A DNA stretch of 12,247 nt, taken from contig RBNI01005692.1 in assembly GCA_003990745.1 (NCBI GenBank), positions 1 through 12,247 on the forward strand, in the 5' to 3' direction. Positions 1-12,247 of the stretch are shown here, one piece after another; position 1 is the first letter of the stretch, and each line of letters begins with the position of its first letter. Below the pieces are notes generated by a model. It worked only from the letters and a program-made list of their open reading frames with translations. It was not told the origin of the DNA and searched no databases. The DNA is from Jimgerdemannia flammicorona. Lineage: Eukaryota > Mucoromycota > Endogonomycetes > Endogonales > Endogonaceae. The position numbers and the translations under genes were made by a program.

Positions 1-1030
1 TACACTATCCCCAATATCAAACTCAGCAAGTGGAACTCCCTCTAGAAGTAGATGGTCCTATCTTCACATAGCTGGGCCCCATACCACCTCCCCCTCATTA
101 CCACACCAGTGCAGGTCAATCTGGTGCACTCCATCGACCACTCTCCACCAGAAGCCCTTATACCATAGCCATCGGCTCCCATTTAGATCCACCAAAGAGA
201 GTAGATCCCCCGAGGACCCCCAGGGGGAGACTCTCATCTCCCACATCTTCTGCATCAGTAGTACCCAACCTCCACCCTGTAGCTCAACAGTCCTTCTCAA
301 CCACCAAGCTCACAGACAGTATAATCACTTAGGGAAATCAACAAGGCCCAGGCCTCCCCTAAGCACTGGCTCGACAAGGGTATCCCAACTGATCTGGGCC
401 CTTTTACCTGCCCAAATCCAATCCCTAGCCAATTTCATCAGTCTCTTCATCATCCAAGCTGGAAAGTCTAAGTGATATGCCACATACTACAGCTTGGGGA
501 ACCAGTATACATTCAGAATCGCCACCCACCCCACCAGGGAGATGTGACGACCCCCCCAACCTTTTAGAGCCTCCCCCCAAATGTCCACCCTCCTCTCCCA
601 CCATATCTATGGCAGGACTGATTCATATATAGAGAGGAAGATACTGAGATACCGCACCACCTCCTGTGGGGACAATTGTTCCAATGACATCCCCTCCCAC
701 TAGCCCATTCCCCAACACCATTGTCTCACACTTATGCCAGTTGAGCTTTGCTCCAGAGTGTGCCTCATACCACTCCACTGTTTCCTGAAGAGTCTCTACA
801 TCCGCTACTGATCCAAGTCCAACTACTATATCATCTGCAAAGGCCCCCACCTTCTACTCCACACTATACACAGAGAGCCCAGCCACCCTCCTACGGATCC
901 TATCCAGCAAAGGTTCCAAGGAGAGTGCATAAAGGATAGGGGACAGTGGATCCCCTAGTTCAAACTCCTCTGATTTCAAAAGTCTCATGAATGAGTAGTT
1001 ACTAGTGCTATATCCTATAGAGAATGGTCC
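1..1030 (-). pseudogene. 5'-truncated LINE (non-LTR) reverse transcriptase and C-terminal region, broken
   Basis: The minus strand encodes the late part of a LINE polymerase, which copies element RNA at a nicked target. Visible motifs are GDPLSP near 950-933 (the usual RQGDPLSP box, here preceded by EL) and the catalytic box FADD at 841-830, with both Asp present. SGAKLNWHK follows shortly after. A frameshift near 660 moves the frame; after it come YLSIFLS, GRHISLVGW and a tryptophan-rich thumb and C-terminal stretch that continues to the left edge. Stops include TAG at a likely Trp codon shortly before FADD, another TAG near 487, and TGA at 66-64. The 5' part of the element (ORF1, endonuclease, early RT) is missing. 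The general look resembles fungal Tad-like LINEs, but the clade is a guess. The LINE assignment is firm; the right boundary (about 1000-1060) is not. Confidence 0.8.
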
Positions 1031-1115
1031 AGACAGATTGCCTGCTGGTCATGGAACATACTGTTATAATTTGTGGACTAGAACCTCATGGGTAGTCATC
1101 ACATTTTGCCTCTCT
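1030..1115. other. Junction between LINE and end of Ty3 pol
   Basis: The stretch lies between the last Ty3 integrase residues (KYYEP, stop TAA at 1117-1115 on the minus strand) and the first clear LINE RT residues. On the minus strand the same frame continues past the TAA to a second TAA near 1063, so pol may originally have ended there if the first stop was once CAA. No LTR, poly-purine tract or target duplication could be recognised. It fits a 5'-truncated LINE inserted just downstream of Ty3 pol, but a deletion joint would look the same. Confidence 0.4.
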
Positions 1116-2150
1116 TATATAGGTTCATAGTACTTCTTGAGTCTGTTCCTATATACTATAGTAGACAGTATGGTCTCTGAGAGTTTTCTAAGCCAGAAGG
1201 TAGTTCTCTTGATATTTTGCACATAGAAGGGTCCTTTCTATTTAGGCTCCAGTTTTTACAACTATGAGGCTTCTACTATATTTTGATATAGTAGAATCTT
1301 TTCTCTGATTTGGACAGGTTCTAGGGTCTTGTGATTCTTTTTGCATTCTTTCTTATCAGCACTTGTGACTTGATGATATAATCTTCAGCCTTCTTTCTGA
1401 TTTGGTATAGTCTCTGGATTTCTGAATTAACCCATCTCTAAGTTAGGTCTAGATTTATAGCTGAGGTTCCATTGGAATCTTCTTCTCTGAAGAGCAGTTC
1501 TCTTGGGGTAAAGTGTGTACTCTGTGACCATATGTCTTGTAGAACAGAGAGGGCAGTTGGGAGGTAGTTATCCCAATTCTCATATATATCTGAGATCTTC
1601 ACCAGGATGTTCTTGAGGGTTTTATTGGTTCTCTCTGTCTGTCCATTTCCTTGAGGGTGGTACATAGTGGTCTTGATGTGCTGAATCTTATATTTCTGAT
1701 ATATTATCTCATAGAATCTATTGATAAATTCTATGCCATGGTCTGTGGTGATTTGCTTTTGTATCTTATAGCAGCAGATGATTTCTCAATACAGGAAGTC
1801 AGCTATAGAGAGGGCATTGACTTCTTGTAATACTTCTGCTTCTATCCATTTGGTAAAGAGATCTACAATAACTATAATATAGCAGTTTCCTGATAGTGTT
1901 ACTGGTAGTGGCCCAATGATATCTATTGCAATGTGGTGGAAGGGGATAGGCTCAATTCTTAATGACCTGGGTGCCTGGTCTTGTGGATCTTGTTTCTGTT
2001 TTTGGCACTTGTCACACCCTTTGACAAATTGGTGTAGATCTTCTTCCATCTTGGGCCACCACATAGTTCTTCTTACCTTATCATATGTGTTGGTTCCTCC
2101 TAAGTGTTCTTGTTCATGTACTTCCTTCATTACTTGATACTTCTTGTATT
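1115..2150 (-). pseudogene. Ty3/gypsy integrase, broken
   Basis: This is the integrase part of pol, which inserts element cDNA into the genome. The N-terminal HHCC zinc finger is intact: HEQEH near 2118-2104 and CDKC near 2014-2003. The catalytic triad is also intact, with Asp at 1923-1921 (IAIDIIGPLP), Asp at 1743-1741 (TTDHGIEF) and Glu at 1635-1633 (GQTERTN). The last two have 35 residues between them, the DD35E spacing. Stops fall at 1788-1786 and 1440-1438. A frameshift then leads to the C-terminal GPY-type module, with KLEPK, a TAG at the usual Trp, KGPF, and finally NRLKKYYEP before TAA at 1117-1115. There is no chromodomain. The frame follows RNase H directly, as expected for a Ty3 polyprotein. 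Confidence 0.9.
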
Positions 2151-2590
2151 CAGGTATTATAAGCTTTCCTCCTTTTCTGAGTGTAGTGTTGTCTAGTTTA
2201 AACTGTTTCTAAGTCTGGTTGATGATAGTGATTGTCCAGAGTTTGAGGTGGTTGGGCTTCTTTCACTACCCAAGATAGCTGATTAATCTATAGTATAACT
2301 CTTTATTCATGTTGAATAGCCTTGATGGGAGTGTTTTGGGGTATCCTTGAGAGTATATCAGCATTGACATTAGTTCTTCCTGAGCAGTGCTTGACAGTAT
2401 AGTCATACTCTTGCAGCCTGTAGATCCATCTGATATATATATATTCCTTTGGAGTTCAGAGTATAGAATAGTCAGGCAAGAGTGGAATGGTCTGTTTAAA
2501 TAGTGAAGTATTTCCTAACTAGGTAGTAATAGAACTTTTCTACTGCCCAAACTACTACTAAGCATTTGAGCTTGTATGACTTATAGTTCT
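2150..2590 (-). pseudogene. Ty3/gypsy RNase H, C-terminal half, and RNase H-integrase linker, broken
   Basis: This half continues the RNase H that is cut by the copia insertion. If the copia and one copy of the 5-bp duplication are ignored, the reading frame passes across the site without a shift. Visible motifs are VVVWAV, then TDH about 30 residues later, then NADILSR, the Ty3 ADALSR box that ends RNase H. The catalytic Glu expected before the VWA motif is Lys (AAA at 2567-2565), and the Glu two residues earlier in the usual motif also reads Lys. Both are G-to-A changes at former CpG sites. There are further stops at usual Gln and Trp codons, and a frameshift near 2415. The stretch 2150-2330 before the integrase finger is a weakly conserved linker with several stops. 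Confidence 0.8.
2586..2590. repeat. Target site duplication, left copy (GTTCT)
   Basis: GTTCT directly precedes the left copia LTR and is matched by GTTCT at 7599-7603 directly after the right LTR. Five bases is the usual copia duplication length. GTTCT occurs twice in tandem on the right (7599-7608), but only the first copy abuts the LTR. Confidence 0.85.
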
Positions 2591-2747
2591 TATTGAAATA
2601 TGTAGGTTACAACTCGATATATATGGTGGCGCAGCCTTCCTTAACTATGTCATCATGTAAATGTCACTAATGGTGATGTGTAAAAGCGCGTAAGAATTAG
2701 CAATAAACACTTTGTTTTTCTCTCTCCAAAGTCCACATTCCACAACA
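2591..2747 (+). repeat. Copia 5' LTR
   Basis: This copy matches 7442-7598 at 149 of 157 positions without gaps. It starts TATTGAAATATG and ends CCACAACA. The terminal five bases would form a perfect inverted repeat (TGTTG/CAACA) if the second base were G, so the canonical TG end appears changed to TA. A TATA-like TATATAT lies at 2618-2624 and an AATAAA at 2702-2707, consistent with promoter and poly(A) signals in one short LTR. The eight differences from the 3' LTR are all transitions. Confidence 0.93.
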
Positions 2748-2770
2748 GGTTATGAGCCCCGGTTAGCGGC
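2748..2770 (+). promoter_or_regulatory. Primer binding site for an internal initiator tRNA-Met (half-tRNA type)
   Basis: GGTTATGAGCCCC begins at the base after the LTR. Its reverse complement, GGGGCTCATAACC, has the hallmark of the initiator tRNA-Met anticodon arm: a GGG stem strand followed by the CTCATAA loop with anticodon CAT. The next bases (GGTTAGCGGC) could pair further towards the D arm. Drosophila copia and yeast Ty5 are known to prime from this part of initiator tRNA-Met rather than from the CCA end. No TGG-initiated site for a tRNA 3' end is present here. Confidence 0.8.
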
Positions 2771-2810
2771 TATACACCCCTCTTACACATATGCTATACT
2801 ATGCTATATA

Positions 2811-3695
2811 ATGGCTACTAGTTCAAGCAGTGCTAGCAGCGCACCGCCAAGTTCTGGTAACATGAACACAAACACAGCCGGAACAGGTTTCGCTTCCATG
2901 ACGATGAATATTCCAGCAGTGGCACCAACGTCAATGGTAAAGAGGACAATTCCTGTCTTTGATGATAAGGACTACGCCATATAGGTGTATCATATGAAGA
3001 ATCTCCTTGAAGAATGCAGTTTGGAGGACTACTGGAAGCCACAGGCACAAGTAACGACATACGACGCCGCGAAAGATCACAAAGCACTAAGGGAGATTAC
3101 ATTCACCCTTTCGAACGCGCAAATGAAGCTGGTAATCAATGCTATGACAGCGAATGAAGCCTGGGAGATTTTATGCAATCACCATCAACAGGCATCCATG
3201 TCAAACAGATTCCACTTAAAGGCACAACTATTCAATCTTCAAATTAAGTCCAAGGAGAGCATCCAGGACTACGCCAATCAAGTTGATGAGCTGGCGAATC
3301 AAGTGAATTCCCTTACATCTATGTTGGCAGACACCATCAAGGATAAAGACAAGGTCCTGGCTCTTATACGAGGCCTTCCCGAAGCGTACAACATGGTTGT
3401 CGCTGCTATGAGGGAATCCGGCAGATTATCAGATTATAAGTACATTGTCACAAGCCTTTTAAACAAGGAAACAAGGCTAGGCAGCAACAATGCCAATGAG
3501 GAATATGACGCGAAAGCATTCTACGATGGAGCACGTGGATGAGGCAAAGGCAAGCCGAACAAAGGTCGAGGCCAGCAATGCGAGAAATTCGATGGTAAAT
3601 GCTTTTACTATAATAAGTGTGGACATCGTGAGCAGGACTGCAACTGCAAGAAGAAGGAAAAGGGTGACCAACAGCAAGGACAACGGCAGGCAAAC
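2811..3695 (+). pseudogene. Copia gag: capsid region and zinc knuckle
   Basis: Gag forms the virus-like particle and binds element RNA. The N-terminus is low-complexity Ser/Ala/Asn/Thr-rich. It is followed by the copia gag core starting near VFDDKDYA (2955 onward), where the usual Trp is a TAG at 2982. A typical gag helical stretch with the box LIRGLPEAYN lies near 3360-3390. The CCHC zinc knuckle is at 3600-3641 (about residues 264-277), with ligands Cys264, His272 and Cys277. The second Cys is Tyr267 (TAT at 3609-3611), a G-to-A change that should break zinc binding. A TGA at 3540 precedes the knuckle. Confidence 0.88.
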
Positions 3696-3929
3696 ATGGT
3701 GGATGCCAACAATGAAAACAGTGGTGGCAGAGGTCTATTCTTTGCAGAAGCAGTGATCTATCCATATGCAGAAACCATTGAAATAGGAGGAAATTTGGAA
3801 CCAACCACCAGTTCCACCAGTTCGACATCTACAAATCCTGGTCAACAAAACACTTTTCAGATAGCGAAAAATGGTGACATCAATATCGGTGCTAGCGCAA
3901 ATATAAGCTATATGCTGAACAGCGCTTAT

Positions 3930-4200
3930 GCATGCAGCGAAGAGGTCTGGCTCATGGATTTGGGTGCAACATAGCATATGATGGCTCACCGGGAGTGGTT
4001 CTCTACATATGAGAAGTTCGAGCATCCCATACCTATCAAGCTAGGTGATAATAATGTTATTTACACTTAAGAGAAAGGCAATGTAGGTATACATCTACAT
4101 GGAAATGTTGATGAACCTTCAGGCACCTTCATGGACATACTATACATTCCAGATATAGGCAAGAACCTCTTCTCGATAGGCCAGATGATGGCTCGCAGGG
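3930..4200 (+). pseudogene. Copia aspartic protease domain
   Basis: The protease cuts the polyprotein. The active-site region reads WLMDLGAT, then a TAG at 3972-3974, then HM. Copia proteases normally have D-S-G-A-T-x-H-M, so the catalytic Asp (GAT at 3957-3959, residue 383) remains, while the next residue is Leu (TTG) where Ser (TCG) is usual, a CpG transition. The stop replaces the residue before HM. A further TAA is at 4068-4070. The downstream part with ILYIPDIGKNLFSIGQ (4137-4184) matches the conserved protease C-terminal segment found before the integrase. Confidence 0.85.
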
Positions 4201-4349
4201 ACAGAGGAGTAAATATATGCCTGAACGGTGTAACGATAATCAATCTGAAGAACAATAATAAGTTAATGTACACATCGAAAAAGGGGAATCTATACGCAAT
4301 CAATGGCATGCCGAGTGGCGCTACATCCGCATATTCTGCAACTACAACA

Positions 4350-5260
4350 GGAGAGGATTTCTGGCATATAATGCATGAATGCTTAGAACATATCGGTAAA
4401 ATGAGTCTCAAACGGATAGTAAGGAGCAAGTCCGTGTACGGTTTACTAGACTATATGTCACCGGATTTCTTTTGCAATGGATGCGCAGCAAACAAGGCTT
4501 CCCGGCAACCTTTTCAGGAACGAATGAAGCAAGTGGCTAGCATTCTCGATTTGATTCATACAGATATTTGTGGCCCCATGTGAATGGCATCACACTCCGG
4601 GAAGAAGTATTTTATTACATTCATTGATGATTATACATGCAAAGTCCACATATATCTCATTGTGGGAAAAGACGAGGCATTCGACAAATTCCAGGAATTC
4701 AAGGCAGCCATGGAGAACAAGACGGGACGTAGAATACAAACCCTACACTCAGATAATGGCAAAGAATACATCAACAAAGGTTTCAGACACTTCTTGAAGA
4801 AGAACGGTATACAGCACTCTACAACAGCTCCTTATACACCTCAGCAAAATAGCATGGTGGAACAATTCAATTGAACGGTAGTGGAAATGGCTAGAATGAT
4901 GATGAATACGGCTGGCTTACCGAAGTCCTTTTGGGTGGAAGCAGTGAATACGGCGGCATATGTTCGAAATCATTGTTTCTCTTGAGCTCTAAGCAAGAAT
5001 CCTGGCAAGCAATCCAGGAACGACAGCAATCTTACTCCTGAGGAATTATGGAATAGATCCAAGCCTGACATTTCACACTTACGCATATTCGGAAGTGAGG
5101 CATATGTTCTGGACAAAGGTGGCAACCAAGGCAAGTTCGAACCTAAGGCAGATAAACATATATTCCTTGGATACGATAGAGCAGGATACAGACTTTGGAA
5201 CCCGCAGAAACGACGTATGATCATTTCACATGACATACAGTTCAAAGAGACTAAGCAGGA
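4350..5260 (+). pseudogene. Copia integrase with GAG-pre-integrase zinc finger
   Basis: The N-terminal finger has His522 and His527 (4374 and 4389), then Cys555 and Cys558 (CNGC, 4473-4484). Within the H-x4-H segment the usual R-L-G reads C-L-E, two transition changes, but the ligands survive. The catalytic DDE core is complete: Asp585 (4563, HTDICGP), Asp648 (4752, LHSDNGKEY) and Glu684 (4860, MVEQFN), with 35 residues between the last two. Stops are TGA at 4581, 4872 and 4983. The C-terminal region carries PDISHLRIFGSEAYV and IFLGYDRAGYRLWNP, conserved after the copia integrase core. A low-complexity acidic linker (about 5280-5500) leads to RT. Confidence 0.9.
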
Positions 5261-5639
5261 AATTTACATGGAAATTCCTATCTCAAATCCGACAGTGAAT
5301 TCGACGGTACAGCCAGCGACATCTACACCAACTGCAAAGGCTAGCGGAACAACATCCTTGAGACCTACGCCAGCGAAACCGCAACCCATTCAAATGGAAA
5401 TGAAGTTGCAAGAACTAAGGATAACGGAAATTACAGATGAAGATGATGAAGAGGATATCTTTCCAAAGGGTAAGCAGAAGCGCAAATCTGGGATGGATAA
5501 TGAAATCCAAGCAGATCTGGGAAATTACTGGAACCCACCCAAGTCATCTCATCACAAACAACATCATGTGAACTATGCCTGCGAATGCACTTACATAGCA
5601 ACGACTAGTGAGCCAGTACACTACAATGAAACCATTCAT

Positions 5640-6560
5640 TCGAATGATAAAAAGGAGTGGAAAAAGGCTATGGATGAGGAGTATAACTCACTCATCAAGA
5701 ATGACACATGGGACTTGGTCCCTCTTCCGGCAAATCGACAAGCCATAGGATCCCGATGGGTGTATAAAATTAAACACGATAGCAATGGCAATGTAGAATG
5801 GTATAAGGCTCGATTTGTAGCAAAGGGGTACTCGTAAGACTATGGCGTAGACTACGATGAGATATTTTCCCTGGTATTTAAGTTGACTTCGCTTAGAATA
5901 CTTCTTGCGATCGGAGCCAAGTATGACTATGAGATACATCAAATAGACATTAAGACAGCCTTCCTAAATGGAGACGTGGATACCGAACTATATGTTCTTC
6001 AACCACAAGGATATGAACTATACGACAATGACAGAAATGAGCTTGTATGTAAATTACACAAAGGGCTCTATGGAATCAAGCAAGCGGCAAGGTTGTGGAA
6101 TCGAAAGATCAATGGATATCTCCTAGACAATAGATTCAAGTGTTGTGAAGCTGATCCATATATATATATCTAACCTACATCCTCAGGAATGGTATACCTG
6201 GGAATTTGGGTTGACGATATTATTTTAGTCGGAATGGCAAGTGAAATCAACGACGTAAAGGCTATACTATACCAGGAATTCAAAATGACGGACTTAGGCG
6301 AAGCGTCCTATCTCCTTGGAATATCGATTACACATAACAGACACGAGCGCACTATACATCTAATGCAAGCCACATACATTCGAAATATTCTCGAGCGATT
6401 CGGGATGAGTGAATGCAAACCAGTTGGGATACCTATAGAAACATTCGTGAAACTAAAGAAGTCTGACACTACGCCCGAGGGAAATGACATCCCCTATCGA
6501 CAAGCCATGGGATCCCTCATGTATCTTATGCAAGGGATGAGACCTGATATCTCTTTTGCA
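5640..6560 (+). pseudogene. Copia reverse transcriptase domain
   Basis: Reverse transcriptase copies the element RNA into DNA. The domain begins near EWKKAMDEEYNSL (5658 onward), includes NDTWDLVPLP, then RWVYKIK, and reaches catalytic Asp1046 (5946, IDIKTAFLNG). The YVDD-type box is WVDD, with Asp1135 and Asp1136 at 6213-6218; Trp in place of Tyr is unusual. Other family blocks are KLHKGLYGIKQA, LGEASYLLGI and YRQAMGSLMYL. Stops are TAA at 5835 (in the KGYS-x-DYGVDYDE block) and TAA at 6171 just before the WVDD region. A Leu stands where Pro is usual in the SPVF-type block (CTG, a transition). Confidence 0.92.
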
Positions 6561-6689
6561 GTAAACAAAGTGGCACAGTATTCTTCATGCTACGACAATA
6601 GCCATTGGACGGCAATCAAGCGAATTTTCAGATATATCAAAGGAACCGTGGACTATACGCTCAGTTTGGGCAGTGATAATGGGCAAAGC

Positions 6690-7184
6690 GGGAGTACTAT
6701 ATGTCTATTCAGTTCTTGTGACGCCGATTGGGCTGGCAACTTAGATGACAGAAGGTCTACAACTGGATACATCTTTAAAGTAAACAATAGAGCCATTTCG
6801 TGGCAAACGCATAAGCAACCTTCAGTGGCAATATCCTCTATGCAAGTGGAATATCAAGTGTTGTCAACAGCAACAAAGGAGGCTATCTGACTTTGAGAAC
6901 TGTTAAAGGAGCTGGGATATGAGCAATAGCACTCTACACTACTCCAGCAAGATAACCAATCAACGATTGCTTTGGCAAAGAACTCTATACATCATGCCAG
7001 AACGAAACACATTGATATATAGCATCATTTCATACGTGAATATGTGGAAAACGGCACTATACACCTTGAATACACCCCAACAGAATATATGACAGCGGAT
7101 TCATTGACTAAAGTCCTTCCAAAGGCAAAGTTTGACTTATGCGTGCAAGGAATGGGTATTACAGGACTCTATGCTGGTAATTAA
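6690..7184 (+). pseudogene. Copia RNase H domain and pol C-terminus
   Basis: RNase H removes the RNA strand during cDNA synthesis. Catalytic residues are present: Asp1304/Asp1306 in CDADWAG (6720-6728), Glu1347 (6849) and Asp1381 (6951, QDNQSTIALAKN). The motif RSTTGYIF is intact. The SSMQVEYQVLS block (6834-6866) contains Met and Val where the family has Thr and Ala; all three are ACG/GCG-type CpG transitions. TGA at 6888 and 6894 sits in the KEAI-x-L-x-ELLKELG block, at positions normally Trp and Arg. TAG codons occur at 6927 and 7020. The end, HHFIREYVENG to ADSLTK, is the usual copia C-terminus, with the natural TAA at 7182-7184. Confidence 0.9.
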
Positions 7185-7432
7185 GGACAATTCGGGATGA
7201 GATAGAATAATAGAATGACAGCAAGCTTCTTTAACATTGATCGCTACATTGCAGATTTCTACCAACATTGCTCATCTACGAATGTTCATATCTCTACTTT
7301 TCAACCTATTTTTCGAGCTTTAAGCAGGCAATTTGAATGTTTTTCGGTTTCTAGATAGCAGTCTGAACATTACAGCGAGATTTGCAGTGGTTATAGCTTA
7401 GTATTGCAGTTTGGGAATTTGCATATCTCATT
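7185..7432 (+). other. Copia 3' untranslated region
   Basis: About 250 bases lie between the end of pol and the purine tract. I see no open frame of note, no strong hairpin and no repeat in it. It is part of the copia element. Confidence 0.6.
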
Positions 7433-7441
7433 GAGTGAGAG
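7433..7441 (+). promoter_or_regulatory. Probable polypurine tract of copia
   Basis: GAGTGAGAG lies immediately before the 3' LTR, where plus-strand DNA synthesis starts. It is purine except for one T, so it is a weak or mutated tract. Position is the main support. Confidence 0.5.
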
Positions 7442-7598
7442 TATTGAAATATGTAGGTTACAACTTGATATATATAGTGGCGCAGCCTTCCTTGACTATG
7501 TCATCATGTAAACATCACTAATGGTAATGCGTAAAAGCACGTAAGAATTAGCAATAAACACTTTGTTTTTCTCTCTCCAAAGTCCACATTCCACAACA
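7442..7598 (+). repeat. Copia 3' LTR
   Basis: This is the partner of 2591-2747, of identical length with 8 substitutions and no gaps. It shares the TA...CA ends, TATATAT (7469-7475) and AATAAA (7553-7558). Of the eight differences, at least three involve a CpG in one copy and TpG or CpA in the other. About 5 percent divergence points to an insertion that is not recent, although hypermutation would inflate any age estimate. Confidence 0.93.
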
Positions 7599-7603
7599 GT
7601 TCT
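7599..7603. repeat. Target site duplication, right copy (GTTCT)
   Basis: It matches the left copy at 2586-2590. The Ty3 RNase H frame continues across this point into 2590 once one copy is discounted. Confidence 0.85.
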
Positions 7604-7805
7604 GTTCTACTCTATGGGTATCTCAGCTTATATAGGAGATAATATATTCATGTCCATCTTTCTTCTGAGCTAAGACTGCTCTAAGTTCTATAGCACTTAT
7701 ATCTATCTGCAGGATGAACTCTAGGTTTCAATCTGGTCTTCTGAGAATGGATGCTTAGGTCAACTTGATCTTGAGTTTATTGAAGATTTCTTAGTATTCT
7801 TTAGT
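7599..7805 (-). pseudogene. Ty3/gypsy RNase H, N-terminal half, broken
   Basis: The stretch follows RT on the minus strand and is cut at 7599 by the copia insertion; the other half is at 2150-2590. The catalytic Asp in LQIDIS (7703-7701) is retained, while the preceding Thr of the usual TDAS motif is Ile. AVLAQKKDG and YIISYIS match the family. Stops occur at about 7808-7806 (usual Trp), in TKEY-x-EIF, at 7730-7728 and after YIS; TGG and CAA are the likely sources. Confidence 0.82.
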
Positions 7806-8640
7806 CTATTCAAATTTAGTCTCCTTCTTCAGTAGCTCATAGATAGGTACTGCAATGTTGGAGTATCCTTTGATGAATCTTCTGTAGTAAGAGGCCAGTC
7901 TAAGGAAGGTATGGACTTTTGTGATTGTTCTGAGTCTTAGGTAGGCTGCAACAGCTTTAATCTTCATAGAGTTTATGTGGATTCCAGTCTGGTTGATGAG
8001 GTGTCCTAGGTAGACAATTTCCTGAGCTGCAAACTTGCACTTCTTAGGCTTGATGTAGAGGCCATGCTCTTTGAGCTTCTTGAGGACTAGCTGTATATGG
8101 TTGACATATTCCCATGCAGTATTGCTGAAGATGATCACATCATCAATATAAATAAAGAGCCATTTTCCAATCTCATTGCTGAAGACTCTGTTTATCATTT
8201 ACTGAAAACTTGCTGGGGCATTGTACATTCCAAATGGTATTTGCAAGTAGATATAGGTGGTATCAGATATAATAAAGGCTGATTTCTCACTGGCATCTTG
8301 AGTGAGACCAATCTGATAGAAGCCTGAGAATAGATCAGTATTTGGCTTCACTTCCAAGAGTGGTAAGGATTTCTTGAATATTTGGAAGAGCTGTCTATCC
8401 TTCTTAGTGATTGTATTGAGCTTCCTATAGTCAATACAGAGTCTTGGGGCAAACTCTTCAGGCTTGCTTCCTTTCTTTGAGGCAAGGACAATGAGTGAAG
8501 CCCAGGGACTGATAGCTTGCTTGATAATTCTAGCTTCTTCCATTTCCTTGAGTTCTGCTCACAGCCATTCTCTATAGGCAGGTAGTATAGATCTGGCTTT
8601 CTGGTAGATGGGCTTAGTATTGCTGGTGTCAACTTTAGTA
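7806..8640 (-). pseudogene. Ty3/gypsy reverse transcriptase, broken
   Basis: The domain enters at about 8636 with KVDTSNTKPIYQKAR, the normal start of a Ty3 RT. A TGA near 8565 lies upstream of EEARIIKQAISPWAS (8540 onward), then CIDYRKLN. The first catalytic Asp is at 8336-8334 (TDLFSGFYQI), and FGMYNAPASFQ is intact. A TAA at 8201-8199 separates this from the YIDD box, whose two Asp are at 8144-8139. KPKKCKFA, YLGHLI and RRFIKGYS follow. All conserved Arg codons are AGA or AGG. With only a few stops, this is the best preserved part of the element. It lies between the dUTPase and RNase H. Confidence 0.92.
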
Positions 8641-9195
8641 GTACTTGGGTTCTTGATTGTAGATATCTCTGAAGTCTGTAGCAAGTACTTCTTTATTCTG
8701 ATACAGGATCTTGAGAGGTTGTTCTTCTAGAGGAAAGTTTTCTCTAATGATATATATATGCTTGTTCTGATCCTTGTCTTTCTTATACTCAAGTTCAGTA
8801 ATCTTAGTGGCAGCATAGGCTCCTCTTCCAGTGGATCCAAAGCCTTGTTCTCCTCTCTTGGTCTTGATGAGTTTGATGGCTTCTGTGATCTTGGGCTTCT
8901 TGATTTCATAGATCAGCATCTGGCCAATCCTGTCATACTTCTTGACTTCAAATGGGGTGGTGGAGTTGTGATTCCTGACTATGAGGAAGATCTCACCAGT
9001 ATAATCAGGTCAATTACTCCTCCTTTAACTGAGATTTCACTTTTGGCCAGACTGCTCCTGATCTTGATAATTCTGGCATGGTTCTCTGGCAACTTGACTC
9101 CAATTCTGGTACCAAGTAGAGTGGTGGTCTGTAGTTCAAGGGTAGCATCTTAATTGCTGATAAGGTCCATTTCTATGACTCCTTCAGTCTTATAT
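8641..9195 (-). pseudogene. dUTPase domain within Ty3 pol, broken by a frameshift
   Basis: Trimeric dUTPases hydrolyse dUTP to dUMP and so keep uracil out of new DNA. Four of the five family motifs are clear. Motif 2 is RSSLAK (about 9058-9041). Motif 3 is GGVID followed, after a one-base shift near 9008, by DYTGEI. Motif 4 reads KKYDRIGQML (KKGDRIAQ is usual). Motif 5 is RGEQGFGSTG (8855-8826). A degenerate motif 1 (MDL, with its Asp) is near 9166. GVKLPENHA precedes motif 2 as in the family. The core is about 115 residues. A 90-residue tail (AATKITELEYKK and onward to about 8641) links it to RT, with another one-base shift at its end. A TAA lies after motif 1. The assignment rests on several independent motifs in order, so I am confident of the family. 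Confidence 0.88.
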
Positions 9196-9239
9196 TCTGG
9201 GATCTTAGCTTTGGGGTAAAACTTCTTGACCTTGAGGGT

Positions 9240-9600
9240 GATGTCTGGTTCTTATTCCTCCTCACCATTACTATCAGCTTGAAGCTCTGGGGGCTGGTCA
9301 TCTTCTTTGGCTTTCTTTTTGCTTCAGCAGCTTCTTACTCATGCTTCTGTTGATGGATTTTCCTGACTTCACTGATATAAGACCAGCAGTTATTCAGATG
9401 TTCAGAGTAGTACATTCTAGTACCATGGGGCATCTTCCTTGAGGGGTATAGCCATTGATGATCTTGTTGTACCACTGCTCATCTGTGAGCTTGAGTGTCT
9501 TGTTCTTGTTTTTGTTCACTGAGTATATGAAGACTTCTGTGTCCTCTTCATCTCCTTCCTCCATGTCTAGTAGAACTCCTTTATAGACATTGATAGAGAC
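9240..9600 (-). pseudogene. Unrecognised pol segment between protease and dUTPase, with possible zinc ligands
   Basis: The minus strand reads an acidic stretch (LLDMEEGDEEDTE), then a Lys/Asn-rich stretch, then DEQWYNKIINGYTPQGRCP. After a one-base shift at a run of C (9430-9427) comes RMYYSEHLNNCW, then KIHQQKHE and a stop, ending in a charged Lys/Glu linker. The order of Cys and His residues (a Cys at 9432-9430, SEH, then NNC) could form a small zinc site. I do not recognise the domain. Coding character is supported by the coherent composition on both sides of the shift and by its place between two pol domains. Confidence 0.5.
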
Positions 9601-9960
9601 TTATACCTTTTTTCCTCTATAGTTGATCTGAATCTTCTGGGCATTGAGGTCAATGATGGCCTTGGCCTTGTGAAGCCATTAGTTGCCAATGAGGATGTCA
9701 TAGTTAGTGGTGCTCATAACAATCACATCTACTGGGATAGTAGCTTCTTCTAACTTCTCAGATTTTGCTAAGGAGGGTAGCTTATGTACCATCTGCTGGG
9801 ACATAGACTATCTTGGTGGACTCTTCAATGTCCCAGCCTAGGCAGTCAATTGCTTTATTGCTTATGAGGCATCCTCCAGCACTGGTATCAATGATGGTAT
9901 TGAAGATACAATCTTTGATCTGATATGGAGTATAGGCTGATATTTTGTACTAGTCTTCAG
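9600..9960 (-). pseudogene. Ty3/gypsy aspartic protease, broken
   Basis: The active site is IIDTSAGGCLIS (Asp at 9889-9887), equivalent to the retroviral D-T/S-G/S-A box. It is followed by AIDCLGWDIEESTK. After a frameshift near 9775 the C-terminal part reads IPVDVIV, then NYDILIGN, a TAA, WLHKAKAIID and KIQINYRGKKV. ILIG-x-x-WL is the second hallmark of the clan. The last TAA at 9603-9601 may be a mutated codon, because an open acidic stretch continues beyond it. Confidence 0.82.
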
Positions 9961-10430
9961 ATTCTTTACCTGAGTCTTCTTGATCATCTTCTTGTGTGTT
10001 GTGAGCTTCTATGATCTTGTATTCTTGGTTTTTGACAGTGGTTGTAAGTTCTAATCTCAACTACTATCTGAAGGCAGAGACTTTGGCTAGTTGTCCAAAA
10101 GTAGCATTGACTTCTGTTCCTTGAGGTTCTTGTAGATATCATACTGGTGGATCTTGGTCTTATACAACTTCTGTTCCTTCTTGCTTTCACTTTCTCCTGA
10201 AACTGGAGTAGCACCTTTAATGATTTGGTAGGCAGTTTTATCTAACTCCATATCTTGATCAATCTCCTTGGGTTGGGTCTTACTTTGGATAGTAATAGCT
10301 GGGGTCTTCTTCAGTCTTCCAACTGGCTTACTGTTGCTCTTCTTGTCATAAGGTTCTGGTACCTTCAGTAATAGGGTAGAATTTGGACTCCTCATAGTAT
10401 TCTTCATTATCAGTGTCACCAATCTCCTTG
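9961..10430 (-). pseudogene. Ty3 linker between zinc knuckle and protease
   Basis: A basic, Lys-rich segment is open from 10422 to 10087 and contains EPYDKKSNSKPVGRLKK and MELDKTAYQIIKGATP. Frameshifts near 10370 and 10110 connect it with the flanking frame that holds the zinc knuckle and the protease. Downstream the text becomes acidic (TQEDDQEDSGKESED) just before the protease. It has no recognisable enzymatic motif. It probably represents the C-terminal part of gag and the start of pol. Confidence 0.6.
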
Positions 10431-10504
10431 ATGACTACTGCATTGGTTTGTTTTCTAGTTCTGGTAGCATTACTTAATTGGACTTTGTACCTTATTTTGC
10501 TCAT

Positions 10505-10546
10505 ACAACTCTTTGCATAGTAGTCTTCTTCTCTACATCTGCAGTA
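10505..10546 (-). pseudogene. Ty3 nucleocapsid zinc knuckle with lost ligands
   Basis: The 14-residue CCHC knuckle position reads Y-C-R-C-R-E-E-D-Y-Y-A-K-S-C. The first Cys is Tyr (TAC at 10546-10544) and the His is Tyr (TAC at 10522-10520); the second and last Cys remain, and the Gly after the second Cys is Arg. Each change is a single G-to-A or C-to-T step from the expected codon. It lies in the same frame as the protease active site and follows a usual linker (EELTK, RFATTIEEYN). Confidence 0.72.
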
Positions 10547-11400
10547 TATAATATTGTATTCTTCTATAGTAGTTGCAAATCTCTATACTGGTCTCCTGTT
10601 GGCACTTCAGACTTCTCTAACAATATCACCAAGGTGTGTAGTTATCTTGGCAAACTACTTAGTGAGTTCCTCCACTGGATCAGCTTTGGTTGCCTTGGGG
10701 GTAGGTGGGAATAGTTATCTGTTTACAACTATAGTGAGTATGATACTAGTTGGCTTTGATGGCTCTATTTTGATGCTAGTTATTTTCTCCATTGAGTGTT
10801 CAATAAAGATCTGGTAGTCCAATATCTCTATACAAAGACCACTTTCTGATCCAGGGTCAGTGTAGCTGGGGTAGACTGGATTGCTAGAGCAATTTCAGAG
10901 TAAACTTCTTTGAGGAAGGTTGAATCCACTATTTGTTCCTTGAGGCAGTCATCATAGCCAGTCCAGACAATCTGATGGCAGATTTTGGTATAGAATGAGT
11001 TGGGATCTTCACTGAGTCTCTGGTAGATAGTATTGAGTTGATCTTTGAGAGCTTGCTTGATCTCTTTGGTATAGTATATAGTTCTGAGGAAGGTCTTCAT
11101 ATTGGCAAGTCTGGCTGTACCAGCATCAGTAATGGTGGCTGCATTGAACTTGTCTCTGGCAGATCCTCTGAGGCTGACTGATAGAAGGGCCAATTGTGCA
11201 TCTACATTGAGGGCTTGTACAGCAGTAAATTGTTCAAAGTCTTCAATAAAGGTCAAGATTGACTCTTCAGTAGTATATCTATAGAATGTGGGGGGATATG
11301 TACATTTCTATCTTGTTTTGAATTCTTGCAGAGATGACTCTTGTAGTCAGGGTAGTTATTATGGTAGTTGTTTATTTTTCAGCTTGAAAGTGAGAGATTC
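10547..11400 (-). pseudogene. Ty3/gypsy gag capsid region, broken
   Basis: The longest open piece (11256-10828) starts at FIEDFEQF and contains LLSVSLRGSARDKFNA, FLRTIYYTKEIKQALKDQLN and DPNSFYTKICHQIVW, the helical pattern of a retrotransposon capsid that packs element RNA. Upstream the frame continues with PPTFYRYTTEES to a TAG near 11311. Downstream there are stops at usual Gln or Trp positions before the zinc knuckle (10850-10547). The true start is not clear. Confidence 0.7.
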
Positions 11401-11612
11401 ATCTTGAATCACCAGCCAATGGACACTAAGTTATCATGTAGTAATTACTGAGTCCTTCAAATATATCAGATTCTCTTCAAGGTGTATCTCTTAGACTAAC
11501 TCAAGTTTGTTATAAGTAAGTTCTTATTGGAGTACCTTCCCAAGGTCTTATAGTCCTCAAAATTCTTATCTTTAAACTGTCTTATTATCTCTTTAGATTG
11601 CTTGCAAGGAAT
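11401..11612 (-). other. Ty3 5' leader or decayed start of gag
   Basis: Short coding-like pieces on the minus strand (KEIIRQFKDKNFEDYKTLG near 11590-11535; ELTYNKLELV near 11520-11490; ENLIYLKDSVITT near 11472-11434) lie in different frames and are interrupted by TAA and TAG. They look like the remains of a charged helical N-terminus of gag, but a non-coding leader cannot be excluded. I did not find a convincing primer binding site. Confidence 0.35.
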
Positions 11613-11666
11613 TGTATATATTGTACTGAGAGGAACTGACTTTATTTTAAAGAAAATAAGAGAGGT

Positions 11667-11675
11667 ATTTATATA
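11667..11675 (-). promoter_or_regulatory. Candidate TATA box of the Ty3 LTR
   Basis: TATATAAAT on the minus strand, upstream of AATAAA at 11646-11641. The position fits an LTR promoter driving the minus-strand gag. The region is AT-rich, so a chance match is possible. Confidence 0.4.
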
Positions 11676-11793
11676 AAATATAATTCAATAGTTACTAAGA
11701 TATAAAGCTAAATATAAATTCCAATAACTAAATAAAATACTGAAACATAGAAAACTACAGTTGTCAGTACAGATTCCAGTATTGATACAGATG

Positions 11794-11931
11794 GTTATAC
11801 AAGTTCAGGGTACTGGTAGAATTCAGTGGTACAGGAAAAGGATGCTGGAAGAATTCTAAGTTACACAGGATCAGAATGCCAGTGGAAGGATTAACTGTTA
11901 CATAGGAAAAGAATGCTGGCAGAATTCAGTA
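11794..11931. repeat. Four degenerate tandem units of about 35 bp
   Basis: Units on the plus strand begin at 11794, 11829, 11860 and 11897 (35, 31, 37 and 35 bp). Each starts GTTACA or GTACA-like, contains AGGAAAAGAATGCTGG or a variant, and ends near AGAATTC. Units 2 and 4 are the most alike (GGAAAAG-ATGCTGG-AGAATTC). They lie in the probable U3 of the Ty3 LTR, where repeats often carry promoter or enhancer sites. Confidence 0.65.
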
Positions 11932-12069
11932 TCACTAAGAACTTTAAAGCAGAATATTCAGGACAATAGGGGCTTCATCCTCATCATCACTGAAGGAGAT
12001 GAGATCTGTGAATGTTTTGTTTGTCTTATTGTATAGGTTGCACATTTTGTATATGTCATATGAGATGAT

Positions 12070-12105
12070 ATCATTGCTGATGACACCATCATTACTGATG
12101 ATGTC
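12070..12105. repeat. Two adjacent 18-bp repeats with TGATGTCA-type sites
   Basis: ATCATTGCTGATGACACC (12070-12087) is followed directly by ATCATTACTGATGATGTC (12088-12105). The second, with its next base, gives TGATGTCA, a CRE/AP-1-like half-palindrome, and TGATGACA occurs in the first. They are near the outer edge of the probable Ty3 LTR. Confidence 0.45.
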
Positions 12106-12115
12106 ATTATGTTCA

Positions 12116-12247
12116 GTAGTGGTAGGAGCTCTCCAATCAAAGTTGGGAGTGTCGGTGCCTGACCCTGAGGAGGGTGGGCGGTGGGTGGCACTGCAGTCGA
12201 GGTTGGTGGGGGGGGTGGGGAATGAGTGGCTGACAGTGGGTTGGGCC
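12116..12247. other. GC-rich flank, unassigned
   Basis: Composition changes abruptly to G-rich on the plus strand, and CpG reappears at 12153. G-runs at 12172-12188 and 12203-12220 could form a quadruplex. On the minus strand the stretch is an open Pro/Thr/Ser-rich frame from the right edge that runs on to a TAA at 11946-11944, but most of that frame lies in the probable LTR and its repeats. No protein family is recognised. Confidence 0.4.

Follow-up and report, generated by a model that had tools for sequence, protein, structure and literature searches.

In Neurospora and other Pezizomycotina, repeat-induced point mutation (RIP) introduces C>T changes on both strands of repeats with a high transition bias. 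In the rust Austropuccinia psidii transposons have lost CpG, the older copies being the poorer, and this loss was attributed to deamination of 5-methylcytosine (5mC; PMC8063080; here and below, statements cited by PMC identifier refer to excerpts of these reports). CpG-biased RIP-like changes have also been recounted for Basidiomycota (PMC4014442), and in Zymoseptoria tritici mitotic C>T mutation is targeted to repeats and depends on the DIM-2 methyltransferase (Dim2; PMC8016269). We analysed a stretch of 12,247 nucleotides from Jimgerdemannia flammicorona (Mucoromycota, Endogonales; assembly GCA_003990745.1, contig RBNI01005692.1, positions 1 to 12,247 of the forward strand; hereafter the window), in which a CpG-free Ty3 retrotransposon is interrupted by a copia retrotransposon that carries CpG. 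In this fungus transposon copies erode almost only by C-to-T changes, CpG first, until they are nearly without CpG, and gene-like DNA retains its CpG. The process shares with RIP the C>T changes on both strands, the preference for repeats and the high transition bias, but CpG is mutated before CpA, the loss is graded and grows with transversions, and the organism lies outside Ascomycota. In contrast to the rusts and other Basidiomycota, the present case is from Mucoromycota, the window copy has zero CpG over kilobases and CpA and CpC are mutated as well. In Z. tritici the mutation is CpA-specific and its dependence on dim2 has been shown, whereas here it is CpG-first and its tie to a DIM-2/DNMT1-type gene is an association.

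The original prediction, made by inspection of the window, had claimed that positions 896–2590 and 7599–12152 hold no CG dinucleotide, and the counts bear this out exactly: there are none in 1,695 bp and none in 4,554 bp, where 61.6 and 171.1, respectively, are predicted from the C and G counts. Pooled, the two stretches have 0 CG in 6,249 bp against about 233 expected, a figure close to the rough 250 given earlier. Under a Poisson null the log10 P of zero CG is −26.8 for the first stretch and −74.3 for the second. The closest CGs are at 894 and 2615 for the first stretch and at 7540 and 12153 for the second, the last being the position at which CpG had been said to return. The copia (2591–7598) contains 157 CG, with an observed/expected ratio (O/E) of 0.71, and four of these fall within its first 150 bases. 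It thus has the many CpGs ascribed to it, but it has decayed too: only 40 of 79 CpG sites of its family are left in the kilobase that was compared. Positions 1–895 have 9 CG (O/E 0.18). The features of the window are as follows, with the basis of each in parentheses.

1–955, minus strand: LINE-like (long interspersed nuclear element-like) repeat fragment, CpG-poor (blastn alignments with L015 reach 874 and those with L022 and L024 reach 955; LINE name and strand judged from the appearance of the translation)
896–2590, no strand: CpG-free stretch 1 (CG count)
956–2590, minus strand: Ty3 retrotransposon, integrase side, CpG-free (homology to L026, 6811–8440, from base 956; Integrase_H2C2 in 1786–2205)
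2586–2590, no strand: left copy of the target-site duplication GTTCT (sequence; L026, which lacks the copia, has one GTTCT fewer)
2591–7598, plus strand: copia retrotransposon nested in the Ty3 (long terminal repeats, LTRs; domains; empty site in L026)
2591–2747, plus strand: copia 5' LTR (LTR search, which gave 2591–2748)
7442–7598, plus strand: copia 3' LTR (LTR search, which gave 7442–7599)
7599–7603, no strand: right copy of the target-site duplication GTTCT (sequence)
7599–12138, minus strand: Ty3 retrotransposon, CpG-free, with the reverse transcriptase, the dUTPase, the presumed gag side and the LTR of the right end (RVT_1 in 7806–8198; dUTPase in 8635–9009)
7599–12152, no strand: CpG-free stretch 2 (CG count)

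The Ty3 family was compared over 1.2 kb in nine copies, namely the window copy and the eight best of 39 other copies listed (from 1,726 first-look candidates). Normal CpG content in other copies, which had been named as the outcome that would overturn the original prediction, was not found: the eight copies have 0–3 CG per 1.2 kb (O/E 0–0.054). The nine copies differ at 300 biallelic transition columns (114 C/T and 186 A/G), and 24 columns contain any transversion (14 biallelic transversion columns and ten with at least three letters). Outside former CpGs, the ratio of transitions to transversions between the window copy and the other copies ranges from 86:7 to 94:1. Of the 28 former CpG sites of this region, five carry all three of CG, TG and CA across the nine copies, 21 carry TG and CA, and two have CG but not both of the others, so that TG and CA both occur at 26 of 28; CG survives in only 12 of 261 former-CpG cells. 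Since one and the same site can carry TG in one copy and CA in another, the loss was largely independent, copy by copy.

For the copia family, the window copy and 21 fetched copies (six and 15 from two listings, each scoring 40 candidates) were compared over 1 kb. The 22 copies keep 35–68 of 79 CpG sites, with no clear gap in the spread; a split into hit and unhit copies had seemed likely with seven copies and is not evident with 22. Pure transitions account for 246 columns and eight contain a transversion, the overall transition:transversion ratio being 50. The 104 singletons comprise 91 C>T or G>A changes, six reverse transitions and seven transversions. Singleton C>T changes outside CpG fall at 31 of 102 CpA sites, 24 of 106 CpC sites and ten of 106 CpT sites, and reverse transitions outside CpG number five. 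Among the first seven copies, the share of C/T-variable positions on the two strands is 73 and 56% for CpG, 40 and 30% for CpA, 14 and 7% for CpC, and 0 and 5% for CpT. CpG is thus the first target and the other cytosines are also mutated, in the order CpA > CpC > CpT; CpA, the preferred site in RIP, comes second. CpG gives way to TpG and CpA in both families, and in the Ty3, the copia and the LTR pairs described below the changes are almost exclusively C:G to T:A transitions.

A lean towards the sense strand was observed in CpG decay. In the copia (window 5700–6700 and the 21 other copies) TG outnumbers CA by 401 to 231 cells and by 44 to 23 sites (sign test p 0.014), and the Ty3, read in its own sense, has 128 TG and 69 CA. 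The copia singletons are free of the lean, with 45 C>T and 46 G>A, and it may for this reason be partly inherited; it is possibly linked to transcription.

The two LTRs of one insertion allow changes after integration to be counted directly. The window copia has eight LTR differences, all transitions and five of CpG type. Altogether, 12 copia LTR pairs (window, L026 and ten fetched) show 63 CpG-type transitions, 28 other transitions (91 transitions in total) and five transversions. A matching 5-bp duplication is present in ten of the 12 pairs (eight exact and two with one transition); these ten account for 52 CpG-type transitions, 18 other transitions and two transversions, and the two pairs without a duplication for 11, 10 and three, respectively. 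The LTR pairs show that CpG loss occurs after insertion. Two of the ten target duplications (L065/L066 and L026) vary by one G/A change, and the mutation process may reach the bases adjoining the insert.

With transversions as a clock, older copies are poorer in CpG. Dividing the CpG-loss hazard by the transversions per site gives about 1,090 for the Ty3 and 828 for the copia, and 622 when the copies are compared with L039, the copia copy that keeps 68 of the 79 sites. For methylated CpG in mammals this ratio is of the order of 30; the LTR pairs reject a value of 30 (P 2.7e-9), which predicts 32 transversions where five were seen. From copia to Ty3, CpG loss increases 6.7-fold and transversions 5.1-fold. 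Since the hazard ratios of the old and young families are similar, and 6.7 is near 5.1, a steady process fits better than a single burst. Among the copia copies, which are not independent of each other, greater CpG loss goes with more transversions (Spearman 0.58, p 0.005).

The wider pattern was examined in the assembly (134.8 Mb in 7,754 contigs) of a genome reported to be about 240 Mb in size (PMC7928374) and to consist of repeats by more than 77% (PMC10386755). The sample took 10 kb from the start of each of 20 contigs in the range C1 to C5500. Its CpG O/E is bimodal: the 400 windows of 500 bp divide into 201 below 0.3 (97 of them below 0.05), 171 at 0.6 or above and 28 between. CpG-free runs of at least 1 kb number 25 and total 52 kb, the longest being 4.7 kb (runs at stretch ends were counted uncompleted). 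An equally CpG-free surrounding genome, which would have spoken against the original prediction, was not found, as five of the 20 stretches (L017, L020, L023, L025 and L028) have an O/E of 1.00–1.12 throughout. Repeats seen within the sample cover at least half of 111 windows, and in 90 of these the O/E is below 0.3. Two CpG-free 1-kb blocks in which no repeat had been seen within the sample proved to be repeated, all of the best 40 of 1,063 and of 1,078 candidates matching, and for one CpG-rich block the only candidate was the block itself. On this small sample (a bimodal 200 kb and three blocks), the C-to-T change is largely confined to repeated DNA. Two stretches of contig C278 (L046 and L047; O/E 0.76 and 1.05) have six partial 5.8S rRNA-like matches in two clusters, below the gathering score.

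A Pfam PF00145 search of the 134.8 Mb gave four candidates, two loci among which are predicted to encode a cytosine-5 methyltransferase. The first was spliced by hand before comparison; its best named relatives, among the proteins of limited length compared, are from Basidiobolus (hypothetical), Acaulospora and Apophysomyces (named Dim-2), and several relatives from metagenomes bear the name DNA (cytosine-5)-methyltransferase 1. Its best solved matches are 9baq and 9bap, entered as DNA (cytosine-5-)-methyltransferase and which we take to be fungal DIM-2, with DNMT1 next. The second locus, at 36% identity, is a relative. Both loci are assigned here to the DIM-2/DNMT1 type. No RID was seen among the four candidates (134.8 Mb of about 240 Mb), no RID-specific query having been made. 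RID and DNMT5 are reported as lost from Mucoromycota clades sister to the arbuscular mycorrhizal fungi (PMC8298701).

The repeat bias, the near-purity of transitions, the context order, the independent loss in each copy and the loss after insertion are established on these samples. The explanation that we favor, with a probability of roughly 0.65, is a gradual, repeat-confined and probably methyltransferase-linked C-to-T process. Mutation would be continuing, cytosine-specific and largely confined to repeats, taking CpG first, then CpA and CpC and rarely CpT. The DIM-2/DNMT1-type methyltransferases would mark the repeats, and the marked cytosines would become thymine over many generations, either by unrepaired spontaneous deamination or with the help of an enzyme. 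The old Ty3 would have undergone this for long enough to lose every CpG, and the copia, inserted later, would be about half way. The stated probability spans both chemical routes, the weight given to the purely passive route being contained in it. Several points weigh against this explanation. The tie between the mutation process and the methyltransferases is an association only, and 5mC is reported not to shape base composition substantially across eukaryotes at large (PMC12695648). The copies were picked by similarity to the query, which favors those that have diverged least, and over all 36 Ty3 pairs the transition:transversion ratio is 16, not 94. The LTR pairs give a lower rate ratio, about 195 for all 12 and 402 for the ten with a duplication, assuming ten CpG sites per LTR, and do not reject a ratio of 100 (P 0.077). 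In the genome sample, which was drawn entirely from longer contigs, seven of the 111 repeat-covered windows have an O/E of 0.6 or more, and 87 of 256 windows without a repeat seen within the sample are below 0.3.

Of the two explanations put forward in the original prediction, a very efficient C-to-T process agrees with the mostly transitional differences between copies and with former CpGs that are now TG or CA. The other, a family that avoided CpG from the start, would mean that the Ty3 was already CpG-free when it spread and that nothing was lost in place. The nine copies examined are indeed nearly CpG-free, but TG and CA side by side at 26 of 28 sites, five of which also retain CG, point to an ancestral CG that mutated separately, and this explanation is barely tenable. 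An APOBEC-like cytidine deaminase that edited retroelement cDNA during reverse transcription could also produce a transition-rich spectrum in retroelements. Minus-strand cDNA is the expected target of such editing; the lean of former-CpG cells to C>T on the sense strand is opposite to this, the copia singletons are even between strands, and changes of this kind, acquired after integration, separate the two LTRs of single insertions. Editing of this kind is accordingly highly improbable. Classical RIP, a premeiotic, homology-sensing and RID-dependent burst in which every similar copy would be mutated in the course of one sexual cycle or a few, has in its favor the near-pure C>T and G>A changes on both strands of repeats, including cytosines outside CpG. 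However, copia copies 94–98% identical to L039 keep a graded 35–62 of the 79 CpG sites with no obvious division into two classes, and of the marks that a processive burst could leave, neither strand runs (permutation p 0.62, on states common to at most six copies) nor patchiness (p 0.25) of CpG loss was detected in the copia. CpG loss moreover increases with transversions, the context is CpG and not the CpA of Neurospora, and the candidates above included no RID in a search not directed at it. The gradation of the loss and the preference for CpG make classical premeiotic RIP less likely than methyltransferase-linked mutagenesis, and we regard it as unlikely.

The favored gradual, methyltransferase-linked process comprises two routes, which separate only partly from each other and from classical RIP. 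Purely passive decay would require only CpG methylation of transposons and spontaneous deamination of 5mC, with little or no T:G repair and no active mutator. It agrees with a graded loss that increases with transversions, with CG methylation above non-CG methylation in Phycomyces (PMC7862722), with the reported confinement of 5mC to transposons in early-branching fungi (PMC12695648) and with the authors' own interpretation of the loss in Austropuccinia (PMC8063080). Against it are the speed of CpG loss, about 195–1,090 times the per-site transversion rate, and the raised C>T rate outside CpG; the LTR pairs exclude a ratio of 30, although one of 100 would pass. A slowly dividing fungus without repair could still attain such ratios. 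We consider passive decay a substantial possibility, at less than even odds. The alternative, an active mitotic RIP-like mutator in Jimgerdemannia, in which repeat recognition by DIM-2-type methyltransferases would drive CpG-first C>T changes far faster than spontaneous deamination, is advanced as a bold proposal, somewhat less likely than not.

The nested arrangement is supported by the copia LTRs of 157 bp, by the 5-bp duplication GTTCT that flanks the insert and by L026, the same Ty3 site without the copia (an empty site). In the copia, RVT_2 and SH3_retrovirus score above cut-off, and gag_pre-integrs and Pol_BBD below it. The presumed gag frame of the Ty3 (10828–11307) has no match to a Pfam family, and no Rfam family matches the window at gathering score. 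With positions 11700–12247 as query, nine of 43 matches end at 12138 and 22 stop at 12089–12092, and none of the 43 except the window itself extends beyond 12138, the probable right end of the Ty3. A second Ty3 LTR at the left end was not reported by the LTR search, which could miss strongly diverged LTRs, and the left end for this reason appears to be truncated. The sharp edges of the CpG-free DNA, proposed earlier as a boundary marker for the element, hold as such only roughly: the left edge at 896 lies 60 bp inside the LINE-like fragment (the switch being at 955/956) and the right edge at 12152 lies 14 bp past the Ty3 end. The edges are therefore not exact element boundaries, and the Ty3 occupies about 956–12138. 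Its polyprotein includes a dUTPase domain (PF00692, E 1.1e-9; 8635–9009, minus strand) beside the reverse transcriptase. A second copia of the same family as that of the window is located at 1124–6208 of L026, adjoining the same Ty3 family, and the copies of its target duplication differ by one transition.

Loss of CpG from transposons is known in other fungi; here it is seen in Mucoromycota, with a strong transition-only signature. A kingdom-wide screen of 2025, which was limited to scaffolds longer than 50 kb and scored repeat-enriched k-mers, reports RIP-like signatures in ascomycetes only (PMC12543289). Because of these scaffold and k-mer criteria, a genome mostly in small contigs, in which CpG is lost into the already common TG and CA, could escape it. 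RIP signatures are reported as undetected in Mucoromycotina species (PMC8647823), and Mucoromycota have been reviewed chiefly for adenine methylation (PMC13297926). In the literature covered, to which the original Jimgerdemannia genome paper did not belong, we found no RIP-like mutation or CpG loss described for Endogonales. Two families of different age, together with paired LTRs, allow the pace of the mutation and its sequence contexts to be gauged against transversions. Dating of transposons by transitions would overestimate their age in J. flammicorona. If the proposal of an active mutator is true, repeat-directed mutagenesis would extend outside Dikarya and be older or more widespread than the reported ascomycete-only distribution.

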